Below, piece after piece: positions 1,653 to 12,466 of a stretch of 64,000 nt of DNA (its first letter is position 1; each line of letters begins with the position of its first letter). The stretch comes from Stratiformator vulcanicus (GTDB lineage: Bacteria > Planctomycetota > Planctomycetia > Planctomycetales > Planctomycetaceae): contig NZ_CP036268.1 of NCBI RefSeq assembly GCF_007744515.1, forward strand, positions 1,250,529 through 1,314,528, read 5' to 3'. Made by a program: the position numbers and the translations under genes. The notes beneath the pieces were generated by a model. That model saw only the letters and a program-made list of their open reading frames with translations, made no database searches and had not been told where the DNA came from.

Positions 1653-2252
1653 TCAAACGTACTCACGAATTCGTTTCAGAATTCTCGCTTTCGTCAAGTA
1701 CACGACGTTTACGGACACACCTAAGTCTTCCGCAATGTGAGCCGCGCTTTGCTCCTCAGCCACGTAGCGAAACAGGATTGCCCAGTCGCGGTCCGTAAAC
1801 TCGGTTTTCACAATCTGCCGAAGCTGCTGAAAACGGGCCTCGGCGTCACTCGAATGCTGCGATTGAAGCGTTTCGTCATCCTTCAACTGGCGGTCCGCTT
1901 CGCCGATCGTTTTTGGGAAACTTGCCGTCTTTCTAAGAAAGTCAACGAGCCGCGATCGCGTCAGGAGACGAAGAAATCGCCGAAAGCTTCCCGGTCGTTG
2001 ACGCTCAAATCGTTCCAGTCTGCGGAACAGATCGAGAAAAATGTCCTGCGTGACGCAATCCGCGTCGGCAGTGGAGAGACCGGCCCGACGACATCTCTTG
2101 AAGACGAGCGGCGAGTAGCGGGCATACAACCGCGACCAGGCATCCGATTCACCAGTCTTGGCCTTGTCGAGCAGGCTTGCCGAAGTCGCCTCGGTTATCG
2201 AAGGCGCGTCGCTGTCCGGCTCAGCCGGTTGGGCGGGGGGCTTCTCGGACAT
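1653..2252 (-). CDS. ECF-type RNA polymerase sigma-70 factor
   Basis: This 199-residue protein directs RNA polymerase to alternative promoters. Region sigma-2 spans about residues 25-108 (ADCVTQDIFLDLFRRLERF, then FRRFLRLLTRSRLVDFLRK). Region sigma-4, a helix-turn-helix, spans about 140-197 (FTDRDWAILFRYVAEEQS, HIAEDLGVS). The frame is open 69 codons further upstream, but ATG at 2252 is preferred because AGGA lies five bases before it and the extension has low-complexity, shadow-like composition. The gene is divergent from the Ser/Thr kinase starting at 2494, with 241 bp between them that must hold both promoters. ECF factors linked to Ser/Thr kinases are a known planctomycete arrangement, so the kinase may control this factor. 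No anti-sigma gene is visible. Confidence 0.88.
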   Translation of the reverse strand: MSEKPPAQPAEPDSDAPSITEATSASLLDKAKTGESDAWSRLYARYSPLVFKRCRRAGLSTADADCVTQDIFLDLFRRLERFERQRPGSFRRFLRLLTRSRLVDFLRKTASFPKTIGEADRQLKDDETLQSQHSSDAEARFQQLRQIVKTEFTDRDWAILFRYVAEEQSAAHIAEDLGVSVNVVYLTKARILKRIREYV

Positions 2253-2493
2253 CAAAATCCTGACAGGCGGTTTCGTTCTACCAGAGGTACCTTTGCGCGT
2301 CTGTCGCGTCGCCTGTTCCGACCCTCTGCGGGCCGGAGTACGGGCGGCGCGGCAGGCTTTGCCATGTCTTGGTATCCGTAGTTCCCCTCGCTCGTCAAAT
2401 CTTACTGGCAAAACTGGCTGGAAATTCGGTGTCAAACTCACTCCAATTGGTCTGAACACACGATCGGCTGGAGGTCTTTCAAGGACTCAACGC

Positions 2494-4659
2494 GTGCCTG
2501 TCGACAGCACTGTCTCTGCCGCCGAGGAATCGTTGCCGCACGGGGACCCCGTCGTCGAGGTCGACCTGCGTTGCGGGGAATTCCTGCAACTATGGTCCGA
2601 GGGTCGACGGCCTCGGATCGAGGACTTCTTGGTCGATACCGGCGACCTCGACCAGTCGACGCTGCTCAGCCGTCTGATCATGCTCGAAGTTCGTGAACGC
2701 GTCCGCGTCGGCGAACAGCCACAGCTTGACGATTACATATCCCGGTTCCCCACCAGCAAGGAGGTCATTAGCCGTCTCACGCCGTTGTTCCGTGATTCGG
2801 GCAGTGACCTGGCGCAACCGGACGAGGCGACGGCCTTCCTCGACGCCTGCACTATCAACCGGCTGGGCCGGTTCGAGATCGACAAGCGGCTCGGCTCCGG
2901 CTCCTTCGGCTCGGTCTGGCGGGCCTGGGACCGCAAGCTGAAGCGGTCTGTCGCCGTGAAGATCATCGACCGGGCCCGGCTCGAAAAGCACGAGATCGAC
3001 CTGGCCCTGCACGAAGCCGGGGCGGCTGCGCAGCTCAATCACGCGAGCATCGTGCAGGTCCACGATGTCGGCCAGACCGACGGCGCGTTCTATATCGTCA
3101 CCGAATACGTCAACGGGGCCGATCTGAAGACGCACCTTCGGCAGGGCGAGCTGAGTCATCGCGACGCCGTGGGGATGTGCGCCCAGATTGCCCGAGCTCT
3201 GCAGCATGCCCACGACAACGACGTCATCCATCGCGACGTTAAACCGTCGAACGTGTTGGTCAATTTCCGCGGCGAGGCCAAGCTGGCCGACTTCGGAATG
3301 GCCCGCTGGGACAAGGCCGACCTGACGCTGACGGCGAAGGATCGGATCGTCGGCGCCCCCGGTTATATGGCCCCCGAGCAAGCCCGTGGCCGTGGTGTCG
3401 GACCACGTAGCGACGTTTATTCGCTAGGCATCATGCTCTATGAAATGCTGACCGGGAAGCGGCCTTTCGAAGGCGAAATCCAGCAAGTCCTTTTCAGTCT
3501 CCAATTCCGTGAAGCGCCCCGGCCGCGGAAGATCAATAAGACAATTTCGCGCGACCTCGAAACGATCGTGCTCAAGGCGATCCAAAAACGGCCCGAGGAT
3601 CGTTACGCCACAGCGGACGAGTTTGCTGCCGATCTGCAGCGGTGGTTAGATGGCGAGCCGGTGAAAGCGCGTCGGGTCTCGCCGATGGGCAAGGTTTGGC
3701 GGCTGGCACTGCGGCAGCCGCGAACGTCGGCGACACTCGCATTCGGAACATTCTTGATCGCTACTGCCATCTCGATTCTCGGCAGCTCGCTAATTACGGC
3801 CGTGCCGGTCGACCCGTTTGCCGACGGCGAGTGGGACGTTCAAGTCGAGACGAAACCGGAGGGCGCAGAAATTACTGTCGTCCAGTTGGATGAACACCAT
3901 CAGCCGATCGCCGAAGCCTTAACGAAGTCGACCGATCGGACTCCACTGACGATGTCACTGGCGCCGGGGCGATACTTGGTGATCGCAACACTCGGGACCC
4001 GTTTCCACGAAGTCCATCGCACGGTGCCAGGAGTTAAGGAAACCATCGCGATCGGCGTTACAAAGCCGAAGCACTGGACACTGCTTGAGGAAGGAGTCAT
4101 TGCTTGGCCGAGAATTGATATCCCCGGCGATAATATTACTGCCGCGATGCAATTGGTGCCGGCTAACGAGAAATTCGCGTACCGAGCACTGGAATCGAAG
4201 GGTAACACGGTCGGGGTGCCGGCTTTCTTCATTGCCCGCAACGAGTACAAAGTTCGCGATCATTTCGAAATCCGAGATCGAATACCGCCGACCGTGTTTG
4301 CGCCACAGGCCTTAAACCAGTCGATGAACGAGCGTCACGATTTTGCCGCTCATTGGGCGGAAGAGAGTGGTTGTCGCCTGCCGACTGACGCGGAACTGGC
4401 GTGGGCAGAAGAGTTTGCCGCTGCCAACCCGGTATTCGGGTTGGCCGAACTTGGGGCCGGATTAGACGAATGGACTTCCGTTCGAGCCGGCTCCGATGCA
4501 AGCCGACGTGACATGTTCCTCTTGTACGGGGGCCTGCGGCGCTCACGTCAGCTCAATCAGCCGGCCGCCCTGCCCAGAATGTACCTCACTAACAGCCGGA
4601 CAATCGGTTTCCGGCTGTGTCGAAGCGCCAGTCCGCGGTACGGTGCTGACGATAGCTGA
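2494..4659 (+). CDS. Membrane Ser/Thr protein kinase with C-terminal FGE/SUMF1-like domain
   Basis: The start chosen is GTG at 2494, with AAGGA eight bases upstream. The longer open frame from 2158 would run antisense through the sigma-factor gene. The 721-residue protein has an N-terminal segment (1-120), a Hanks-type kinase domain from about 125 (GSGSFGSVW loop near 133, VAVKI Lys near 155, HRDVKPSN near 246, DFG near 267, APE near 291), a membrane span at about 410-437, a PEGA-like beta domain (450-520), and a formylglycine-generating-enzyme-like domain (about 550-712: CRLPTDAELAWAEEF, DEWTS, GFRLCRS). All main catalytic kinase motifs are present. The kinase would be cytoplasmic and the FGE-like part outside. 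It is followed 63 bp later by a clostripain-like peptidase, which suggests a shared pathway. Confidence 0.92.
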   Translation: MPVDSTVSAAEESLPHGDPVVEVDLRCGEFLQLWSEGRRPRIEDFLVDTGDLDQSTLLSRLIMLEVRERVRVGEQPQLDDYISRFPTSKEVISRLTPLFRDSGSDLAQPDEATAFLDACTINRLGRFEIDKRLGSGSFGSVWRAWDRKLKRSVAVKIIDRARLEKHEIDLALHEAGAAAQLNHASIVQVHDVGQTDGAFYIVTEYVNGADLKTHLRQGELSHRDAVGMCAQIARALQHAHDNDVIHRDVKPSNVLVNFRGEAKLADFGMARWDKADLTLTAKDRIVGAPGYMAPEQARGRGVGPRSDVYSLGIMLYEMLTGKRPFEGEIQQVLFSLQFREAPRPRKINKTISRDLETIVLKAIQKRPEDRYATADEFAADLQRWLDGEPVKARRVSPMGKVWRLALRQPRTSATLAFGTFLIATAISILGSSLITAVPVDPFADGEWDVQVETKPEGAEITVVQLDEHHQPIAEALTKSTDRTPLTMSLAPGRYLVIATLGTRFHEVHRTVPGVKETIAIGVTKPKHWTLLEEGVIAWPRIDIPGDNITAAMQLVPANEKFAYRALESKGNTVGVPAFFIARNEYKVRDHFEIRDRIPPTVFAPQALNQSMNERHDFAAHWAEESGCRLPTDAELAWAEEFAAANPVFGLAELGAGLDEWTSVRAGSDASRRDMFLLYGGLRRSRQLNQPAALPRMYLTNSRTIGFRLCRSASPRYGADDS

Positions 4660-4722
4660 AGAATCCGATCAACGTGTTGGGGCCGGCGCTCTCCATTCCG
4701 TCGAATCGTAAGAGGCCCCACG

Positions 4723-6285
4723 ATGCCAAAACCGCGAAAGCAGTGGTCAATCCTGTATTGCTGCATCGATCGCGCTTATAAGACGAGTTCCAGCCCGGAC
4801 CCTTCGGAGAATGCAGCTGCTGCAGTCTTGCGTGGACTGGACCGACTCGCACCGGAACTCGATCACGTGTCGGTCACGGCTCTTCACGATGTTCGGCGTG
4901 GTGGGCGGTTGACGGATCGAACGGTTCACCAGACCGGTAACCGCTCGAAGACTTTCGAGGATTTCTGCGGCCTTTCGTCCGGAGAAGCAACTTCGTTGCC
5001 CGAGACGGTCCTGGCTTACCTGAAGGCCGCCATCAAGAATGCACCGGCGGACCATACGATCGTGTTCTTCACCGGGCACGGTTTCGGAGAATTTGGTTTT
5101 GGTGATAAGCCAGACCTGCTGGCACTCACGCTTCTGGCATCGCACTTCAAGACCGACCTTGATGGCTATTTGGAGAGCAGCGAGGACTATCGTGAAAAAT
5201 CGGTGGAGTTAATCACAGACTGGTTGCCGAATTTAACAGCCGATATGTCACTTCGGGCAGATGATGAAGCCGCCGTAACGACAAAGAAGGCGACGGAGTT
5301 TGTCGATCGGCTCTTTGAGGTGGGGCCTTCCCTTGTGGAAGCCTACCATCACGCGGCGCCAGGACACATCGCATACACAACTTCCCTTGATTTCGACAAA
5401 GGCGTCGTTCGCGCCAAAAAACCGGACGTTCAAGATTCATTGACGATCCTCCGGCTCCGGGAGGTCATTCGGGACTTCATTACTTACGCAAGAAGTCATC
5501 GCTACTCTGCGAGTACGGGTCGGATCGACATGCTCGGCTTCGAGGCATGCGACATGTCAACGGTCGAGGTCGCATACGATTTGGGAGACCTTTGCAAACA
5601 CATCGTCGCCAGTCCTATTCGTTTTTTCAGCGGCTTCCCCCATACATCTTGGATTGCGGGGCTCGATCAGTATCCGGGCACATTCGGGCTGCCGTCGTTT
5701 GCCATCGCAACCGCCATTGAGTGCGACGATCACTTGCGATCACTGGCAATCGCCTCAATGTTTGTCGCAATGGAACCACGACTCCGCAAAAACCTCGTCG
5801 CACGCATCAATAATTTCGTCCGTGTTGCAAAGCCACTTCTTAAAAACGACACGTTTCGGGATCACGTCACTAACGCGGTGGAAGCTTCTCGCTGGGACCT
5901 GAGCGAAAGAGATTCGACAACGGAGCTTGGAGAACGCGAGGTCTCACAAGTCGGGCTGATGTGGAGCGTGTTCTTACCACGATTTTTCGGCGACCTTGAA
6001 AGTCGCCTGTCCGACCCCGCATTTCAGGACGCAAAAACGGCTGCACACGCGATCGCGCGAATGACGGTCTTCCCGCCCGAAGATGGAGATAGAAACTGCA
6101 TCATCGCCGATCGGTCGCTCACGACCAATAATCGGTTGAGCATGGGATTCGCCGCAGAAGATGGGATGCTCACACTCTATTTCCCCGATCGAGCCGACAT
6201 TCTTGATCGATATGAAACATCCAGCGCGTTCGCCAGTATTTCTGATTGGCCGTCGTTCTTAAGGCATTATTTTCAGAAAAAATAA
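4723..6285 (+). CDS. Clostripain-family (C11) caspase-fold cysteine peptidase
   Basis: This is a 520-residue protein with ATG preceded by AGAGG at seven bases. The caspase-like catalytic pair is visible: HTIVFFTGHGFGEF with His119, and IDMLGFEACDMSTVEVAY with Cys276, which matches the C11 pattern of DACxMxxVEVAY. Between them is an insert of about 150 residues where C11 enzymes carry their autoprocessing linker. The region after residue 340 is helical and unassigned. No signal peptide is seen (MPKPRKQW), so it is probably cytoplasmic. It lies directly downstream of the kinase-FGE gene and may be cotranscribed with it. Caspase-fold peptidases next to signalling modules often act in regulated proteolysis or conflict systems, but the substrate here is unknown. 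Confidence 0.85.
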   Translation: MPKPRKQWSILYCCIDRAYKTSSSPDPSENAAAAVLRGLDRLAPELDHVSVTALHDVRRGGRLTDRTVHQTGNRSKTFEDFCGLSSGEATSLPETVLAYLKAAIKNAPADHTIVFFTGHGFGEFGFGDKPDLLALTLLASHFKTDLDGYLESSEDYREKSVELITDWLPNLTADMSLRADDEAAVTTKKATEFVDRLFEVGPSLVEAYHHAAPGHIAYTTSLDFDKGVVRAKKPDVQDSLTILRLREVIRDFITYARSHRYSASTGRIDMLGFEACDMSTVEVAYDLGDLCKHIVASPIRFFSGFPHTSWIAGLDQYPGTFGLPSFAIATAIECDDHLRSLAIASMFVAMEPRLRKNLVARINNFVRVAKPLLKNDTFRDHVTNAVEASRWDLSERDSTTELGEREVSQVGLMWSVFLPRFFGDLESRLSDPAFQDAKTAAHAIARMTVFPPEDGDRNCIIADRSLTTNNRLSMGFAAEDGMLTLYFPDRADILDRYETSSAFASISDWPSFLRHYFQKK

Positions 6286-6323
6286 AAGTGCTGCCGTCGG
6301 GTGCAATCCGAGCAGCAGCACTT
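6286..6323 (-). terminator. Rho-independent terminator between convergent genes
   Basis: A nine-base-pair stem AAGTGCTGC/GCAGCACTT has an inner TCGG/CCGA stem and a GTGCAAT loop. On the minus strand the stem is followed by a T-rich run (complement of AAAAAATAAAA), so it should end the DUF1559 and secreted-protein transcript. It may work in both directions. Confidence 0.7.
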
Positions 6324-6410: not shown

Positions 6411-7256
6411 TCAGTTCGTCTTAATAATCACTCTGATTCCGGTCAGCTCGACGAGGTACCCGTTGTCCGTGAAGCCCCCAGTGCTTCGTGCGATGCGGTT
6501 CACCATGCTGCGTTTGATCGTGACTTCGTTAGTGGTGTTACCGGCGCCGCCCGGAGGGTCATAGTCAGCACACGCGTTCGGGTCACGCGAAAGGAAGCCA
6601 AGCCCCCCTTGGATTCGCGGCTGCTGTTTGTGACGGACGTAAAAGAACTTCGCCCACCTTTGACGGCCGCTGCTGTTTTCCCAAGTCAAGTACGTCGGCT
6701 CCGAGTCGACGATCACGAAGTTGGCATCGAGGCCGGGATAGACATCGCCGAGTCGGGTCGTACAGGGACGAAAAACGGCACTGGTAATCGTTGTGGTAAC
6801 CGTTGTCCTTACCGAATCTGGGTCTGTCTCCTCCGAGGCCCCTTCCTCCTCCGATTGACTTTTCGGCTTAGTTGATTCCTTCGACTCCTTTTCTTGATCG
6901 CCCGATTCATCGCCCTGTCCGCAGCACGCGGGGCCTTCCTGACCTCCTAATCCTCCAAGTGTCACACAGTTGCACGTCGCTGGCATTGTGCTCGTATCAC
7001 ACGAGCCTCCGGCCTGGCTGTCACAGATCACTTCGATCCCGGTTGCCACCCGCGTACCGCAGTCTTCGCCCATCGCAGGGTCAAATTCGTGCTTGTAGCC
7101 CCAATACGCTCCCGAGGAAGGTCCCATCGGACAAGCGGCGTTATCCGGTTCATCCCAAAGACGATAGAGTCCGCAGAAGCAGATATCAGCGCTTGCTTGC
7201 GTAGTAAAAACAGCCAGTAAGATTGCCGTTACGACAGTGGTCTCAAGAGTCTTCAT
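6411..7256 (-). CDS. Secreted Cys-rich protein of unknown function
   Basis: A 281-residue protein with signal peptide MKTLETTVVTAILLAVFTTQASA. ATG at 7256 is preferred over the in-frame ATG at 7268 because GGGAG lies about five bases before it. The mature N-terminal half has many cysteines (ICFCGLY, ACPM, CGTR, CDSQ, CDTS, CNC, ACCGQ). A charged linker rich in E, K and S follows (about residues 115-150), and the C-terminal half is predicted beta-rich. I do not recognise a family. It lies 31 bp downstream of a DUF1559 pseudopilin-like gene on the same strand and is probably cotranscribed. A role at the cell surface or with the DUF1559 product is only an inference. Confidence 0.72.
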   Translation of the reverse strand: MKTLETTVVTAILLAVFTTQASADICFCGLYRLWDEPDNAACPMGPSSGAYWGYKHEFDPAMGEDCGTRVATGIEVICDSQAGGSCDTSTMPATCNCVTLGGLGGQEGPACCGQGDESGDQEKESKESTKPKSQSEEEGASEETDPDSVRTTVTTTITSAVFRPCTTRLGDVYPGLDANFVIVDSEPTYLTWENSSGRQRWAKFFYVRHKQQPRIQGGLGFLSRDPNACADYDPPGGAGNTTNEVTIKRSMVNRIARSTGGFTDNGYLVELTGIRVIIKTN

Positions 7257-7287
7257 CCAAGCTCCCATTCTCTTATCGTGATTAAGT

Positions 7288-8322
7288 TCAGAACTCCGCT
7301 ACAACCTCACCGTCATTGCGCTGGGCCAATAGTTTGAGCACGCGCAAGTCCATACTTTCTCCAAGGAAGCGCACGCTTCCATCCGCTAACGTCACCTGTG
7401 CTCCGCCCACGTGTGTCGACAGCAGCGGGTTATTCGGCCCGCCTTTGGGATCAATCCCATCGAGCGAAGCATCACGTGTCCCGATGGGATATCGGATCGT
7501 CGTGAGGTTGAATGCCGGGAACGCGGGCGGGGTGAAGATATTCAGCGGCGGTCCACTGAAATTCCCATAGGTCGGCGGAGTCCCGTCACTAAACGTCCCG
7601 GCCGCCCAGCTTTCCGGGTGGCTCGGCGTCACGACAACTCGCGTCCCAGTCGAATCTTCCGCGAAGTCGGAAATCTCACCAATACAAATCGTGTTCGACG
7701 TTCCATCGGTGATATCGCGCAGCCGCACAATCCCGTTCGGGATCAACACTCCGTCGGCGCCCAGAATGCCTGCGTCAGCATCAGGGATCAGTGTCGTGCA
7801 GCAAACCACTGAGTCGACGGAGTTGTAGCCGCCATCAGCGAACCCAACGCTCGAAGATTCGGCGGCACCGGCAATGCCGGCATAGTGGGGTGCAGCCGCA
7901 ATCCCCGTTGCCACCGTCACGGTCTTGGGAAGCGGGCTGGACGGGCAAAACATGAACGGCATCTTTCCCGCGCTGGCGATCACGGGGTTCAGAAGGCCGC
8001 TATTGTCTAAGTCAGCCTGAAACTGTTGGTAGACGTTCTGCTGTTCGAGTTGAGGCAGCAGTCCCACCCACCAACTCGGCCCCAAACCCGATTGTGATCT
8101 CGCCCCAATTGGGAAACTTTCCTTCCACGTACTCGCATAGTTATGCAATGCCAGCCCGATTTGCTTCAGATTGTTCTTGCAACTCGACCGCCGAGCGGCC
8201 TCACGCGCCTGCTGGATCGCGGGGAGTAATAAAGCAATGAGAATCGCGATAATCGCAATGACGACCAGTAGTTCGATCAACGTAAAGCCATGGGATGCTT
8301 TTGTTCTCAGTCGGCCACGCAT
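7288..8322 (-). CDS. DUF1559 pseudopilin-like protein
   Basis: A 344-residue protein with a type IV prepilin N-terminus: short basic leader, then [23 protein letters not shown] with the processing site at the Gly-Phe bond, and then the [21 protein letters not shown] segment typical of DUF1559. The family hallmark near the end is also seen (GGAQVTLADGSVRFLGE and a terminal RNDGEVVAEF). DUF1559 proteins are hugely expanded in Planctomycetota and are thought to be surface or periplasmic pseudopilins; their exact role is unknown. It is the first gene of a two-gene unit with the secreted Cys-rich protein. Confidence 0.95.
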   Translation of the reverse strand: MRGRLRTKASHGFTLIELLVVIAIIAILIALLLPAIQQAREAARRSSCKNNLKQIGLALHNYASTWKESFPIGARSQSGLGPSWWVGLLPQLEQQNVYQQFQADLDNSGLLNPVIASAGKMPFMFCPSSPLPKTVTVATGIAAAPHYAGIAGAAESSSVGFADGGYNSVDSVVCCTTLIPDADAGILGADGVLIPNGIVRLRDITDGTSNTICIGEISDFAEDSTGTRVVVTPSHPESWAAGTFSDGTPPTYGNFSGPPLNIFTPPAFPAFNLTTIRYPIGTRDASLDGIDPKGGPNNPLLSTHVGGAQVTLADGSVRFLGESMDLRVLKLLAQRNDGEVVAEF

Positions 8323-8587
8323 GGGGAAATCTGCCTCTCCGGCTAGGGGGGATTGTGGGGAGCGCTTCCCGATGAGGTAACGTACCCATCTGTCACACCT
8401 CTCTTCAACAATGAATTTAACGTAAAGCCCGTGACCGCATTGACATCGGTAGTTCCCCCGCCCTTCGTGTCACCACCCCGGGGCTTGCACGTAGGTTGTT
8501 GCACTTATTCTGTGACAGGTCCGCTCGTTTCCGCAGAGGACCCATTGCCCGAGAATTTGTCTGAATCGATCGACCGAGGGTGGAGAG

Positions 8588-8824
8588 TTGGAATACGTCA
8601 CCGACAACGACAACGAGGCCGCGAAGCAGGCCGAGGAAGAATTAGCCGTGATGGTCTGTCATCTCGCGATCTACCGGAACGTGCTGTCCTCATATTTGCG
8701 CGGACGAGACGTCCCGGTTTCGCCGGGAAGCCTGCCCTCGGCGCGAGAAATCGCTCAACGCCTCACGGAACTGAGCGATACGATCGATCGGGTCGTCGAG
8801 AACTCCAACGCCGCTTCGATTTAA
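8588..8824 (+). CDS. Small acidic hypothetical protein
   Basis: A 78-residue open frame starting at TTG 8588 with a GAGGGTGGAGAG purine stretch just upstream. The product is helical and acidic at the N-terminus (NDNEAAKQAEEELAVM) and has a C-terminal helix (REIAQRLTELSDTIDRVVEN). The amino-acid pattern looks protein-like, unlike the overlapping minus-strand frame 8690-9124. No family is recognised. The 265 bp between it and the DUF1559 gene hold no other gene. Moderate doubt remains that it is expressed. Confidence 0.45.
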   Translation: MEYVTDNDNEAAKQAEEELAVMVCHLAIYRNVLSSYLRGRDVPVSPGSLPSAREIAQRLTELSDTIDRVVENSNAASI

Positions 8825-9258
8825 TCGGTCAGGCCTATCGTCCGGCGGCCACCGCGGCGAGCCGAGTCCGACTGGCATTTGTCGTCGCAGGCTGATCCTC
8901 GTCCTCGTCGATCGTGGGCTTGTGATTCGCTGGTCGAATTGGGTCTCGGAGGTATCCCGGAGAGCCGGCAGGATTGTTTGTTCGTCTCGCCCGGGTCGGC
9001 GGATACGCTGAAGAACTGCCATTGTCCCGTCCGCAGGATACGCGGGTTGATGTCGCCACTTGGCGAGCCGCCGTTTGAATTGCGAGCGAGTTTGCAGTCG
9101 CCCCGTTTGACGGCTCTGTTCCACGCGTTCTCAGAACGGCGGGCGCTATATGCTTGGGAACTGGCGTCGATTGGAATCTGCGATTACGTTCTTAATTGGT
9201 AGGACATTTTGCCCGCTGTCGATTCCCCGCCGCTGCTGATCGCTTTCGGAGCATGCCT
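8825..9258. other. Intergenic stretch without supported genes
   Basis: Open frames here on both strands are short, lack ribosome-binding sites and show no known motif. The stretch presumably carries the sulfatase promoter, but I cannot identify a clear -35/-10 pair. Confidence 0.45.
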
Positions 9259-10734
9259 GTGAAGGTCGCCCTGACATTAATTGCCATCGCCGCGGGATGG
9301 ACGTTCCCGCTTTCGGTGTTTGCGGCAGCCGAGTCCCGACCCAATTTTCTGTTGATCGTAGCCGACGACTTATGCTGGCGCGATCTCGGGGTCACCGGGA
9401 ACCCCGACGTGAAGACGCCTCACATCGATCGGCTGGCGACTGATGGAATGAGCCTGAGCGGTATGTTCACGCCGGCCCCCACTTGCTCTCCGTGTCGGCA
9501 CGCGCTCTATACCGGATTGTACCCGGTTCGTTCGGGGGCCTATCCGAATCACGCCAAAGTTGACCCGGCAACGAGAAGCCTCTTCGTTTACCTGCGTGAT
9601 TCGGGGTACCGTGTCGGCCTCCACAACAAGTCGCACGTCGCGCCCTTCGAGTCATTCCCCTTCGAACAGGTCGGTGAGCGGGAAGACGACTTCGCAGCGA
9701 TTCGAGAATTCATCCAGCGAGATGCCACGCAGCCTTGGCTCCTGGTCTTTGCGTCGAGTAGTCCGCATTCGCCTTGGTCGAAGGGCCCGCAGGGTCGCTA
9801 CGATCCTGAGAAACTAACAGTCCCATCCTATCTCCATGACAATCCGACGACGCGCGAGGCGCTCGCCCGCTATTACGCGGAGATCAACGCCCTCGATGAC
9901 CAAGTCGGACGGCTCGAATCACTGTTAAAGGACACGAAGACTCGCGACGAAACAGTGACCCTCTTCCTGTCTGAGCAGGGGAGCGCATTTCCTTTCGGCG
10001 GGAAATGGACGCTATCGGACAACGGCATCCGAGTCGCCGCGTTCCTTCGCTGGCCCGGTCGAGTCCAGCCGAAATCTCGTACGGACGCGCTTGTGCAATA
10101 TGTCGATGTCGCGCCGACGTTCCTGGAAATGGCGGGCATCGTTCCAGCGACGATCGACACCGGGTGCCCGGACGCGCTGGGAAATGTCGGATTCGACGGA
10201 CGCAGCTTCCTGGGTCTGGTGACTGGGGCGACCGACCGGCATCGCGAGTACGTTTTCGCCGAGCATACGGCGGTCGGAGTGGCCGGTTATAAAGAGCCAT
10301 ACCCTCAGCGCTGTGTCCGCGACGGGCGATTTAAATTGGTCCGCAACTTGATGCCCGAGAACGAGTTCTTTATTCGCGGTATTCATCAATCATCCGTCTA
10401 TCGATCATGGCTGCACGATGCCGAATCCGACGAAAAGTTAATTGCGAGAATAGACCGACTCAGCGTCCACCCGGCAGTTGAGTTGTTCGATCTGCAGAAC
10501 GATCCCTTCGAAACAAATAACATTGCGGAAGACCCTCGTTACGAGGAACACCGTCGCCGTCTCAGCGGGCGACTTGATGCCTGGATGAAACAGCAGGGCG
10601 ATGAAGGAATCGCCACAGAGTTGAATGCCAAGTCCCGGCAGGCGGGCCGCAAACAGTGGGCAAGGGATCGGCGGATGCATCGCGAAGCGAATCGTCACGC
10701 ATCTATAGGATTTAAGTACGAGGAAATCGAATGA
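9259..10734 (+). CDS. Secreted sulfatase, N-sulfoglucosamine sulfohydrolase-like
   Basis: A family S1 sulfatase that would hydrolyse sulfate esters or sulfamates of polysaccharides outside the cytoplasm. GTG at 9259 is preferred (GGAG seven bases upstream, then MKVALTLIAIAAGWTFPLSVFA as signal peptide); ATG at 9253 sits only one base after GGAG. Metal-binding VADDL begins near residue 31 after the PNFLLI strand. The formylglycine site is CSPCR with Cys76, followed by HALYTGLYP. The segment GLHNKSHVAPFESFPFE and the later LFLSEQGSAFPFGGKW resemble heparan N-sulfatase (SGSH) type enzymes, probably the S1_8 group. An FGE is needed for maturation, and the nearest FGE-like domain is the one fused to the kinase. 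The true substrate is unknown. Confidence 0.9.
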   Translation: MKVALTLIAIAAGWTFPLSVFAAAESRPNFLLIVADDLCWRDLGVTGNPDVKTPHIDRLATDGMSLSGMFTPAPTCSPCRHALYTGLYPVRSGAYPNHAKVDPATRSLFVYLRDSGYRVGLHNKSHVAPFESFPFEQVGEREDDFAAIREFIQRDATQPWLLVFASSSPHSPWSKGPQGRYDPEKLTVPSYLHDNPTTREALARYYAEINALDDQVGRLESLLKDTKTRDETVTLFLSEQGSAFPFGGKWTLSDNGIRVAAFLRWPGRVQPKSRTDALVQYVDVAPTFLEMAGIVPATIDTGCPDALGNVGFDGRSFLGLVTGATDRHREYVFAEHTAVGVAGYKEPYPQRCVRDGRFKLVRNLMPENEFFIRGIHQSSVYRSWLHDAESDEKLIARIDRLSVHPAVELFDLQNDPFETNNIAEDPRYEEHRRRLSGRLDAWMKQQGDEGIATELNAKSRQAGRKQWARDRRMHREANRHASIGFKYEEIE

Positions 10735-11104
10735 TACTGCGGGCTGTGCCAGTTCCCGATGATTGACTGGCGAATCCATCGGTCCCCCGTGGATCGCCGA
10801 TCATTTCTTAAGCATTCGGATGCTTCGACGTATGACTTCGATCTCTCGCGCGGCTCTTTCTTAATTGATGCCAGTATATCCGCCGTAACGGCAGTCGAGT
10901 CAGGTTTTAGGACGTGTTCAATGTCGAGCGATCACTCGCGGCCAAGAAGTGTCTCCCGAGTTATCCGGCTCCCGTGATCGATACCGAAGAAAGTTATAAT
11001 GTCATTGAAATCAAATTCCGGTCCGACTGAACGTTCCCGCAACCGGGCAATGCAATTGTGAGAATAAATACCGCATTCCGAACTTCTTTCAACGAAAGCA
11101 CGTG
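10735..11104. promoter_or_regulatory. Intergenic region with possible -10 element
   Basis: This 370 bp gap holds no convincing gene. A perfect TATAAT occurs at 10995-11000, about 105 bp before the oxidoreductase start, but the hexamer 17 bp upstream (ccgtga region) is a poor -35. Housekeeping promoter use is therefore only a guess. A short open frame 10759-10977 begins with residues resembling a Tat-type leader but lacks a ribosome-binding site. Confidence 0.25.
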
Positions 11105-12466
11105 ATGCACCGCCGAAATTTTCTAACATCGGTTATGGCCGGCGGCCTGTCGCTCGGAGCGTTCGGGAGCGTCAAAGCGCAGCCGATCGGCGCGAACGAC
11201 CGCGTGCGTGTCGGTTGGATCGGCTGCGGCGGACGCGGTCGGTTCGTCGCGGAGCGATTTCGCTCGACTCCCGGCGTCGAAATCGCCGCGGTTTGCGATG
11301 TCTACGAGCCGAACGCGGGCAAAGCACGAGACTGGCTCGATGGTCGGCCCGATGCCGTGAATGATTTTCGGCGGATTCTTGATCGGAGTGATATCGACGC
11401 CGTGCTCGTCGCAACGCCGGACCATTGGCACGCCATCCCCACGGTGCTGGCATGTCAGGCCGGCAAAGATGTTTATGTGGAGAAACCACTCGGTCATAAC
11501 GTCCAAGAGGGGCGGGCGATGGTCGATGCGGCGCGGCAGTATGAACGCGTCGTCCAGACGGGTACGCAGCAACGTTCGGCCGCTCACTTCGAACGCTGCC
11601 GGGAGATCGTACAGAGTGGAAGTCTCGGCGACGTGCGATTCGTCCGCATCTGGAACTACCGCAACAGCACGCCGGACGGCATCGGGAAGCCGCCGAACGG
11701 ATCCGCGCCGAAAGGTCTTGACTGGGACTTCTATCTCGGGCCAGCCCCCGAAACAGCCTTTAATCGAGCTCGGTTTCTCGGCAACTATCGTTATTTCTGG
11801 GACTACGCTGGCGGGATCCCGACCGACTGGGGAACACACCGATTTGACGTGATGCATCTCATCATGGGCGCGTCAGCGCCGCGATCGGTCGTGGCGTCGG
11901 GCGGACGATATCCCGACATTGTCGACGACTCAGCCGAGGTCCCCGACCTGTTGCAAGCGACGTTCGAGTACCCAAATTTCATCCTTAACTACGAGTCGAC
12001 CCGACTCAACGCGTTCGGCACGGGAGGACGGACGGCCGGTATGAAGTACTACCGTGCTAACGGTCCCGACGATCGGCCCAACGGCCTCGCATTTTATGGC
12101 ACCAAAGGGACGTTGCTGGTCGACCGACTCGGCTTTGAACTCATGCCTGAATTGAAAGCCGGTATGAAGGCGACGGCGGAGGAGCGCGGGTCGCTCGAGA
12201 AGTTTCGGATGAAACCAGAGGATGCGTTCACGCCCGATTCGACAGGGCTCCATGTGGAGAATTTCGTCGATTGCGTCCGCTCACGCAATCGGCCGATCGC
12301 CGATGTCGAATTCGGTCACCACGCCTCGAACACGGCTCATCTCGCCAATATCGCTTACCGTACCGGGCAAAAGTTAAATTGGGACGCCGACCGAGAAACA
12401 TTCGGTAATGCCGAGGCCGATCGATTCCTCTCGCGCGAAGCTCGAAAGCCGTGGGACCTGATTTAA
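11105..12466 (+). CDS. Secreted Gfo/Idh/MocA family oxidoreductase
   Basis: A 453-residue NAD(P)-dependent oxidoreductase. The N-terminus MHRRNFLTSVMAGGLSLGAFG resembles a twin-arginine leader (RR present), so export of the folded, cofactor-loaded protein is likely. A Rossmann fold starts at VRVGWIGCGGRG, with AAVCD, VATPDHWH and VYVEKPLGHNV (the EKP Lys is the usual active-site residue). The C-terminal GFO_IDH_MocA beta domain follows, including ETAF and DWGTHRFD. Such proteins act on sugars or inositols. It lies downstream of a sulfatase, consistent with a polysaccharide-use role, but the exact substrate is unknown. ATG at 11105 is preferred to the GTG just before it. Confidence 0.92.
   Translation: MHRRNFLTSVMAGGLSLGAFGSVKAQPIGANDRVRVGWIGCGGRGRFVAERFRSTPGVEIAAVCDVYEPNAGKARDWLDGRPDAVNDFRRILDRSDIDAVLVATPDHWHAIPTVLACQAGKDVYVEKPLGHNVQEGRAMVDAARQYERVVQTGTQQRSAAHFERCREIVQSGSLGDVRFVRIWNYRNSTPDGIGKPPNGSAPKGLDWDFYLGPAPETAFNRARFLGNYRYFWDYAGGIPTDWGTHRFDVMHLIMGASAPRSVVASGGRYPDIVDDSAEVPDLLQATFEYPNFILNYESTRLNAFGTGGRTAGMKYYRANGPDDRPNGLAFYGTKGTLLVDRLGFELMPELKAGMKATAEERGSLEKFRMKPEDAFTPDSTGLHVENFVDCVRSRNRPIADVEFGHHASNTAHLANIAYRTGQKLNWDADRETFGNAEADRFLSREARKPWDLI

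Follow-up and report, generated by a model that had tools for sequence, protein, structure and literature searches.

The window, a 64,000-nucleotide stretch of the Stratiformator vulcanicus genome (NZ_CP036268.1), contains an ECF sigma factor gene (199 aa; 1653..2252, minus strand) divergent from a gene for a Hanks Ser/Thr kinase (2494..4659, plus strand). The kinase gene is followed on its own strand by one for a 520-aa caspase-fold peptidase of the clostripain family C11 that lacks a signal peptide (4723..6285), and for all three genes coordinates and strands agree with the original prediction made for 1653-6285. Downstream of the peptidase, and convergent with it and the kinase, lies a gene for a 285-aa secreted Cys-rich protein with a signal peptide and the motif C..C...YW...C (6411..7268, minus strand). 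Directly upstream of the latter, on the same strand, is a gene for a DUF1559 prepilin-like protein (7288..8322, minus strand; PF07596, 1.4e-50; PF07963, 2.3e-8; TIGR04294), which carries an N-methylation motif, H-X9-DG and the SBP_bac_10 domain that together with the motif marks prepilin-like proteins. Between the two convergent transcription units stands a strong stem-loop (6286..6323; RNA fold z -4.2 on the plus and -5.0 on the minus strand) with a U-rich tail on the minus strand, likely the terminator of the DUF1559-secreted-protein operon. Promoters would be expected in the divergent region delimited by the sigma and kinase ORFs (2253..2493). A sigma-70 scan of this region found no consensus promoter, an ECF-type dyad common to it and the DUF1559 promoter did not rise above shuffled sequences, and a search for a promoter motif shared by the two transcription units found none.

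The sigma factor matches PF04542 (E=4e-10) and TIGR02937 (E=1e-18; 67.5 bits against a cut-off of 42.9) and conforms to the ECF model of sigma2 and sigma4 domains only. An orthologue 42% identical to it occupies the same place in a relative of the same family, G116; across kinase loci, the method used detected a sigma gene at only about 31 of 70, the window's own included. That sigma-kinase pairs are known in Planctomycetota, as had been stated for this locus, is borne out by groups ECF59, ECF61, ECF62 and ECF217, listed as kinase-associated in the phylum (PMC8999054). These groups share with the window both phylum and sigma-kinase neighbourhood; in the literature searched we found no mention of the secreted partner family or a C11 peptidase alongside them. 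An ECF sigma gene adjoining a transmembrane Hanks kinase gene also characterizes the ECF43 pairs EcfP-PknT and EcfK-PknS. ECF43 factors are activated via phosphorylation by the neighbouring kinase (PMC13147305, PMC8999054), and in their sigma2.2 region the acidic DxxD is swapped for uncharged residues including the phospho-Thr (PMC13147305). In contrast, sigma2.2 of the window protein has the form DADCxxQD (DADCVTQD, and DSDCMAQD in G116): only the second Asp of DxxD is lost, replaced by Cys, and three Asp are retained in both proteins. Since the acidic residues of this contact region are thus mostly kept, ECF43 membership was ruled out, and direct phosphorylation of the sigma factor is offered as a hypothesis. 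The window differs from the ECF43 pairs further in the FGE-like ectodomain of its kinase and in the additional secreted-protein, DUF1559 and C11 genes.

The kinase (PF00069, E=5e-57) retains VAVK, HRDVKPSN and DFG, in line with the Hanks-type pattern VAxK/HRDxKPxN/DFG. An N-terminal planctomycete domain precedes the kinase domain (aa 127-373), a single transmembrane helix (about aa 421-439) and an extracytoplasmic tail, which comprises a PEGA-like part and then a degenerate FGE-like part; the GTG start is predicted only, and the frame is open to 2158. Structure prediction gave a confident beta-rich, PEGA-like model for the first approximately 70 ectodomain residues and did not resolve the FGE part; the PEGA match in the G116 kinase has E=0.05. 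Pfam made no FGE-sulfatase call in the window kinase, and in the kinase of a second relative, G159, the FGE match reached only E=0.009, below the curated cut-off. Profile comparison by hhalign, however, aligned the tail to a true FGE protein encoded elsewhere in this genome (83% over 40 columns). Judged from such profiles, the FGE label denotes resemblance only, real but degenerate; of the external FGE-like domain first proposed, the kinase, its transmembrane helix and the resemblance hold, whereas an FGE call above the curated cut-off does not. The same architecture is seen in the single-pass kinases with a periplasmic sulfatase-modifying (FGE) domain that are common in Planctomycetota (PMC11032199), and the available portion of that report does not describe partner genes such as those of the window. 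PADLOC matched the window kinase only to generic kinase models such as PD-T4-6. In another genome, G011, a kinase with an FGE-sulfatase domain and WD40 repeats (L095:2-3589) immediately precedes the FGE-tail kinase, giving tandem receptor kinases.

Assignment of the peptidase to C11 rests on PF03415 (37.8 bits against a curated cut-off of 25.8), the match spanning the Cys block only, and on His119 and Cys276 (codons 5077-5079 and 5548-5550, plus strand), which do not vary across the 18 sequences of an alignment with C11 homologues; the clostripain-type peptidase with an intact dyad that had been predicted is thereby confirmed. The best matches of its AlphaFold model (mean pLDDT 63) were C11 crystal structures (Z 22-25). 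As the alignment behind the model contained C11 proteins, this match indicates compatibility with a caspase fold and is not independent proof of it. The His-Cys dyad, the caspase fold and the C-terminal W and YFP blocks are shared with clostripain, PmC11 and iotapain. Unlike these, the window peptidase has no signal peptide, its His-Cys spacing of 157 aa exceeds that of ordinary C11 proteins by about 100 aa, with the long insert poorly resolved in the model, and its S1 Asp is replaced. In PmC11, activation involves self-cleavage in the His-Cys linker at Lys147, and Asp177 serves the S1 role (PMC4850288). The corresponding residue, two positions before Cys, is Glu274 in the window, Asn in G116 and His in G159; since Asp is present in 12 of the 16 homologues aligned, and is thus typical of C11 without defining it, we treat the replacement as a difference in specificity rather than as exclusion from the family, and specificity for Arg/Lys is not to be taken for granted. 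A hydrophobic N-terminus is found in most of the 16 homologues but neither in the window protein nor in three related C11-like peptidases described below. Lacking a signal peptide, the enzyme is therefore probably cytoplasmic and would likely act next to the kinase domain. As for a second C11 copy in the genome, a contig scan with the peptidase protein alone gave none, and two weak matches proved false: the one at G000:C1:3321418 is a sigma-54-type regulator, and the other, at 2286604, falls in an unrelated region.

A modelled caspase fold and a predicted cytoplasmic location would suit a cell-death executioner, in which the kinase signal activates the protease, essential proteins are degraded and the cell is killed, and bacterial caspase-like proteins do occur with ECF sigma factors in proposed conflict systems (PMC8195603). 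The peptidase, however, belongs to neither C14 nor CHAT and has no PADLOC match; among its neighbours we recognised neither a death effector nor a pore former nor a defence gene, and the constant partners are a secreted and a pilin-like protein. We consider this reading distinctly unlikely.

The secreted Cys-rich protein belongs to a family (members about 220-350 aa long, Cys conserved) for which neither Pfam nor NCBIfam holds a model, and whose genes follow most FGE-tail kinases convergently. An HMM built without the members from the window, G116 and G159 recovered all three (E=9.4e-5, 2e-8 and 9e-7, among 4848 ORFs), and we therefore regard the family as real. Across 170 genomes of the same family, a secreted gene lies within 2.5 kb downstream at 59 of the 69 kinase loci with enough flank, convergently in 57, whereas the upstream control found one at 1 of 62. 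The two genes are directly successive and less than 300 bp apart in 52 loci, and the only convincing genes found between them are the four C11-like peptidases. DUF1559 genes lie downstream at 21 of 66 kinase loci and upstream at 1 of 38; because DUF1559 is abundant in the phylum, this bias in direction counts for more than mere presence. The window genome has one copy of the secreted family, and in most genomes copies occur only at kinase loci, a result that is supportive but not independent, the search profile having been trained on kinase neighbours. One member, at G091:C1:8092386-8092853, lies where the kinase-tail search gave no match and is possibly an orphan copy. No other partner accompanies the kinase as constantly as the secreted protein. 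The core module consists of sigma factor, kinase, secreted protein and often DUF1559, with the peptidase as a rare add-on. The trio of sigma factor, kinase and peptidase first proposed as a unit is accordingly present as genes but is not the functional unit, since the most constant kinase partner lies outside 1653-6285.

Whether the peptidase-kinase pairing recurs was the test by which the original prediction could have failed, and it does recur. Relatives were taken from the 170 same-family genomes (an order-level search gave the same 170), among which a search with the peptidase alone, made without reference to the kinase, identified one, G116. There the order sigma (minus), kinase (plus), C11 (plus), secreted (minus), DUF1559 (minus) is identical to that of the window at protein identities of 26% for C11 and 37% for the kinase, and the kinase and C11 genes overlap by 4 bp. 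A Pfam C11 search, likewise independent of the kinase, brought in G159; its peptidase passes the threshold only when neighbouring matches in the frame are counted. In that genome the secreted-protein, C11 and kinase genes are adjacent, on a contig that ends inside the kinase gene, and C11 shares its strand with the secreted gene instead of with the kinase. Approached from the kinase side, the tail search matched in 63 of 170 genomes, and reading the flanks of 78 kinases brought out G011, where the kinase is followed by a C11-like gene, a convergent secreted gene and a weak ECF-like gene. The G011 protein is Pfam-negative and aligns weakly by hhalign (1%, E about 0.05), with GHG and LHMC motifs in order, making it a probable rather than an established fourth case. 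G116 and G159 represent two genera besides that of the window, and G011 probably a third. Elsewhere in the family, none of nine further loci with Pfam C11 genes, mostly encoding large or secreted proteins, has an FGE-tail kinase nearby.

Maturation or quality control of the secreted or DUF1559 protein before export would offer a different role for the peptidase, which always adjoins both the kinase and the secreted gene and in G159 shares the strand of the latter. Most loci with both proteins nevertheless have no peptidase, and cutting would need to occur in the cytoplasm, before export; we judge such processing unlikely. A peptidase gene functionally untied to the kinase, its position a matter of history, would fit its presence at only 4 of 78 kinase loci (window, G116, G159 and probably G011). 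On a quick kinase tree with several long branches, the four kinases concerned fall together in a set of 12, a tighter grouping than any obtained with shuffled labels; they may share one origin, so that the events may not be independent. A mere passenger seems rather improbable all the same, given that gene order and catalytic residues are retained down to about 20-26% identity, that the G116 genes overlap, and that peptidase-only searches find these C11 genes beside this kinase only. The peptidase is best seen as a rare and ancient accessory, retained or lost within a single kinase lineage, and not as several proven independent gains.

Other C11 arrangements were met outside this lineage. Two species from a single genus, in a different family of the same class (G387, L181:4090-7431; G263, L184:5582-8947), carry a short Hanks-type kinase of about 310-330 aa directly upstream of a large C11 gene on the same strand, a second and different kinase-C11 pairing. 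A 1597-aa protein of G111 (L022, ORF 7213-12003) joins C11, CHAT and DUF7379 domains, and ORFs with a C11 match and of similar size occur in G112 and G114.

Conservation of the C11-kinase pairing in other genera makes a link between signalling and proteolysis plausible. That part of the proteolysis or cell-death circuit originally envisaged is upheld, whereas cell death itself is unsupported. Of the readings of the pairing, regulated proteolysis coupled to the kinase is the most likely. As a whole, we put at roughly 0.5 the probability of a kinase-centred transmembrane signalling module in which C11 serves the pathway as a regulated protease. In this model, the extracytoplasmic PEGA/FGE-like domain would control the cytoplasmic kinase, its signal probably being read out by way of, or jointly with, the secreted Cys-rich protein of the convergent gene. 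The kinase would act on the ECF sigma factor, which would in turn drive the module's own genes and probably that of the DUF1559 surface protein. Into an old kinase lineage a cytoplasmic C11 protease would have been inserted between the kinase and secreted-protein genes; most likely kinase-gated, it would cut a regulatory or target protein of the response. Gene content, the conserved arrangement, the catalytic residues and the peptidase's missing signal peptide are established here; what we infer is that the secreted protein serves as ligand or co-sensor, that the sigma factor is phosphorylated, that the kinase controls the protease, and which kind of protein the protease cuts. A fuller receptor-kinase-to-caspase pathway, with a self-encoded secreted ligand and a transmembrane kinase switching on C11 and the ECF sigma factor together, is conceivable but doubtful.

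Several elements of this picture have precedents: sigma-kinase pairs, FGE-tail kinases (PMC11032199) and, as a proposal, ECF regulators with caspase-fold proteases in ECF54 (PMC8999054). The latter shares with the window the notion that an ECF regulator may be coupled to a caspase-fold protease, but its protease is CHAT rather than C11, no FGE-like kinase takes part and the example is actinobacterial. In the literature searched we found no report of a C11 peptidase joined with the FGE-tail kinase type, nor of the C11 member, its position between kinase and secreted gene, or the secreted partner family. Ser/Thr kinases and ECF sigma factors abound in planctomycetes, and for most of them little is known of what feeds into them and what they control. 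Secreted proteins whose genes lie tail-to-tail with those of a single class of kinase are candidate ligands or co-sensors that can be tested family-wide, and the C11 add-on makes it possible to test whether a Hanks kinase is coupled to a cytoplasmic protease of caspase fold.
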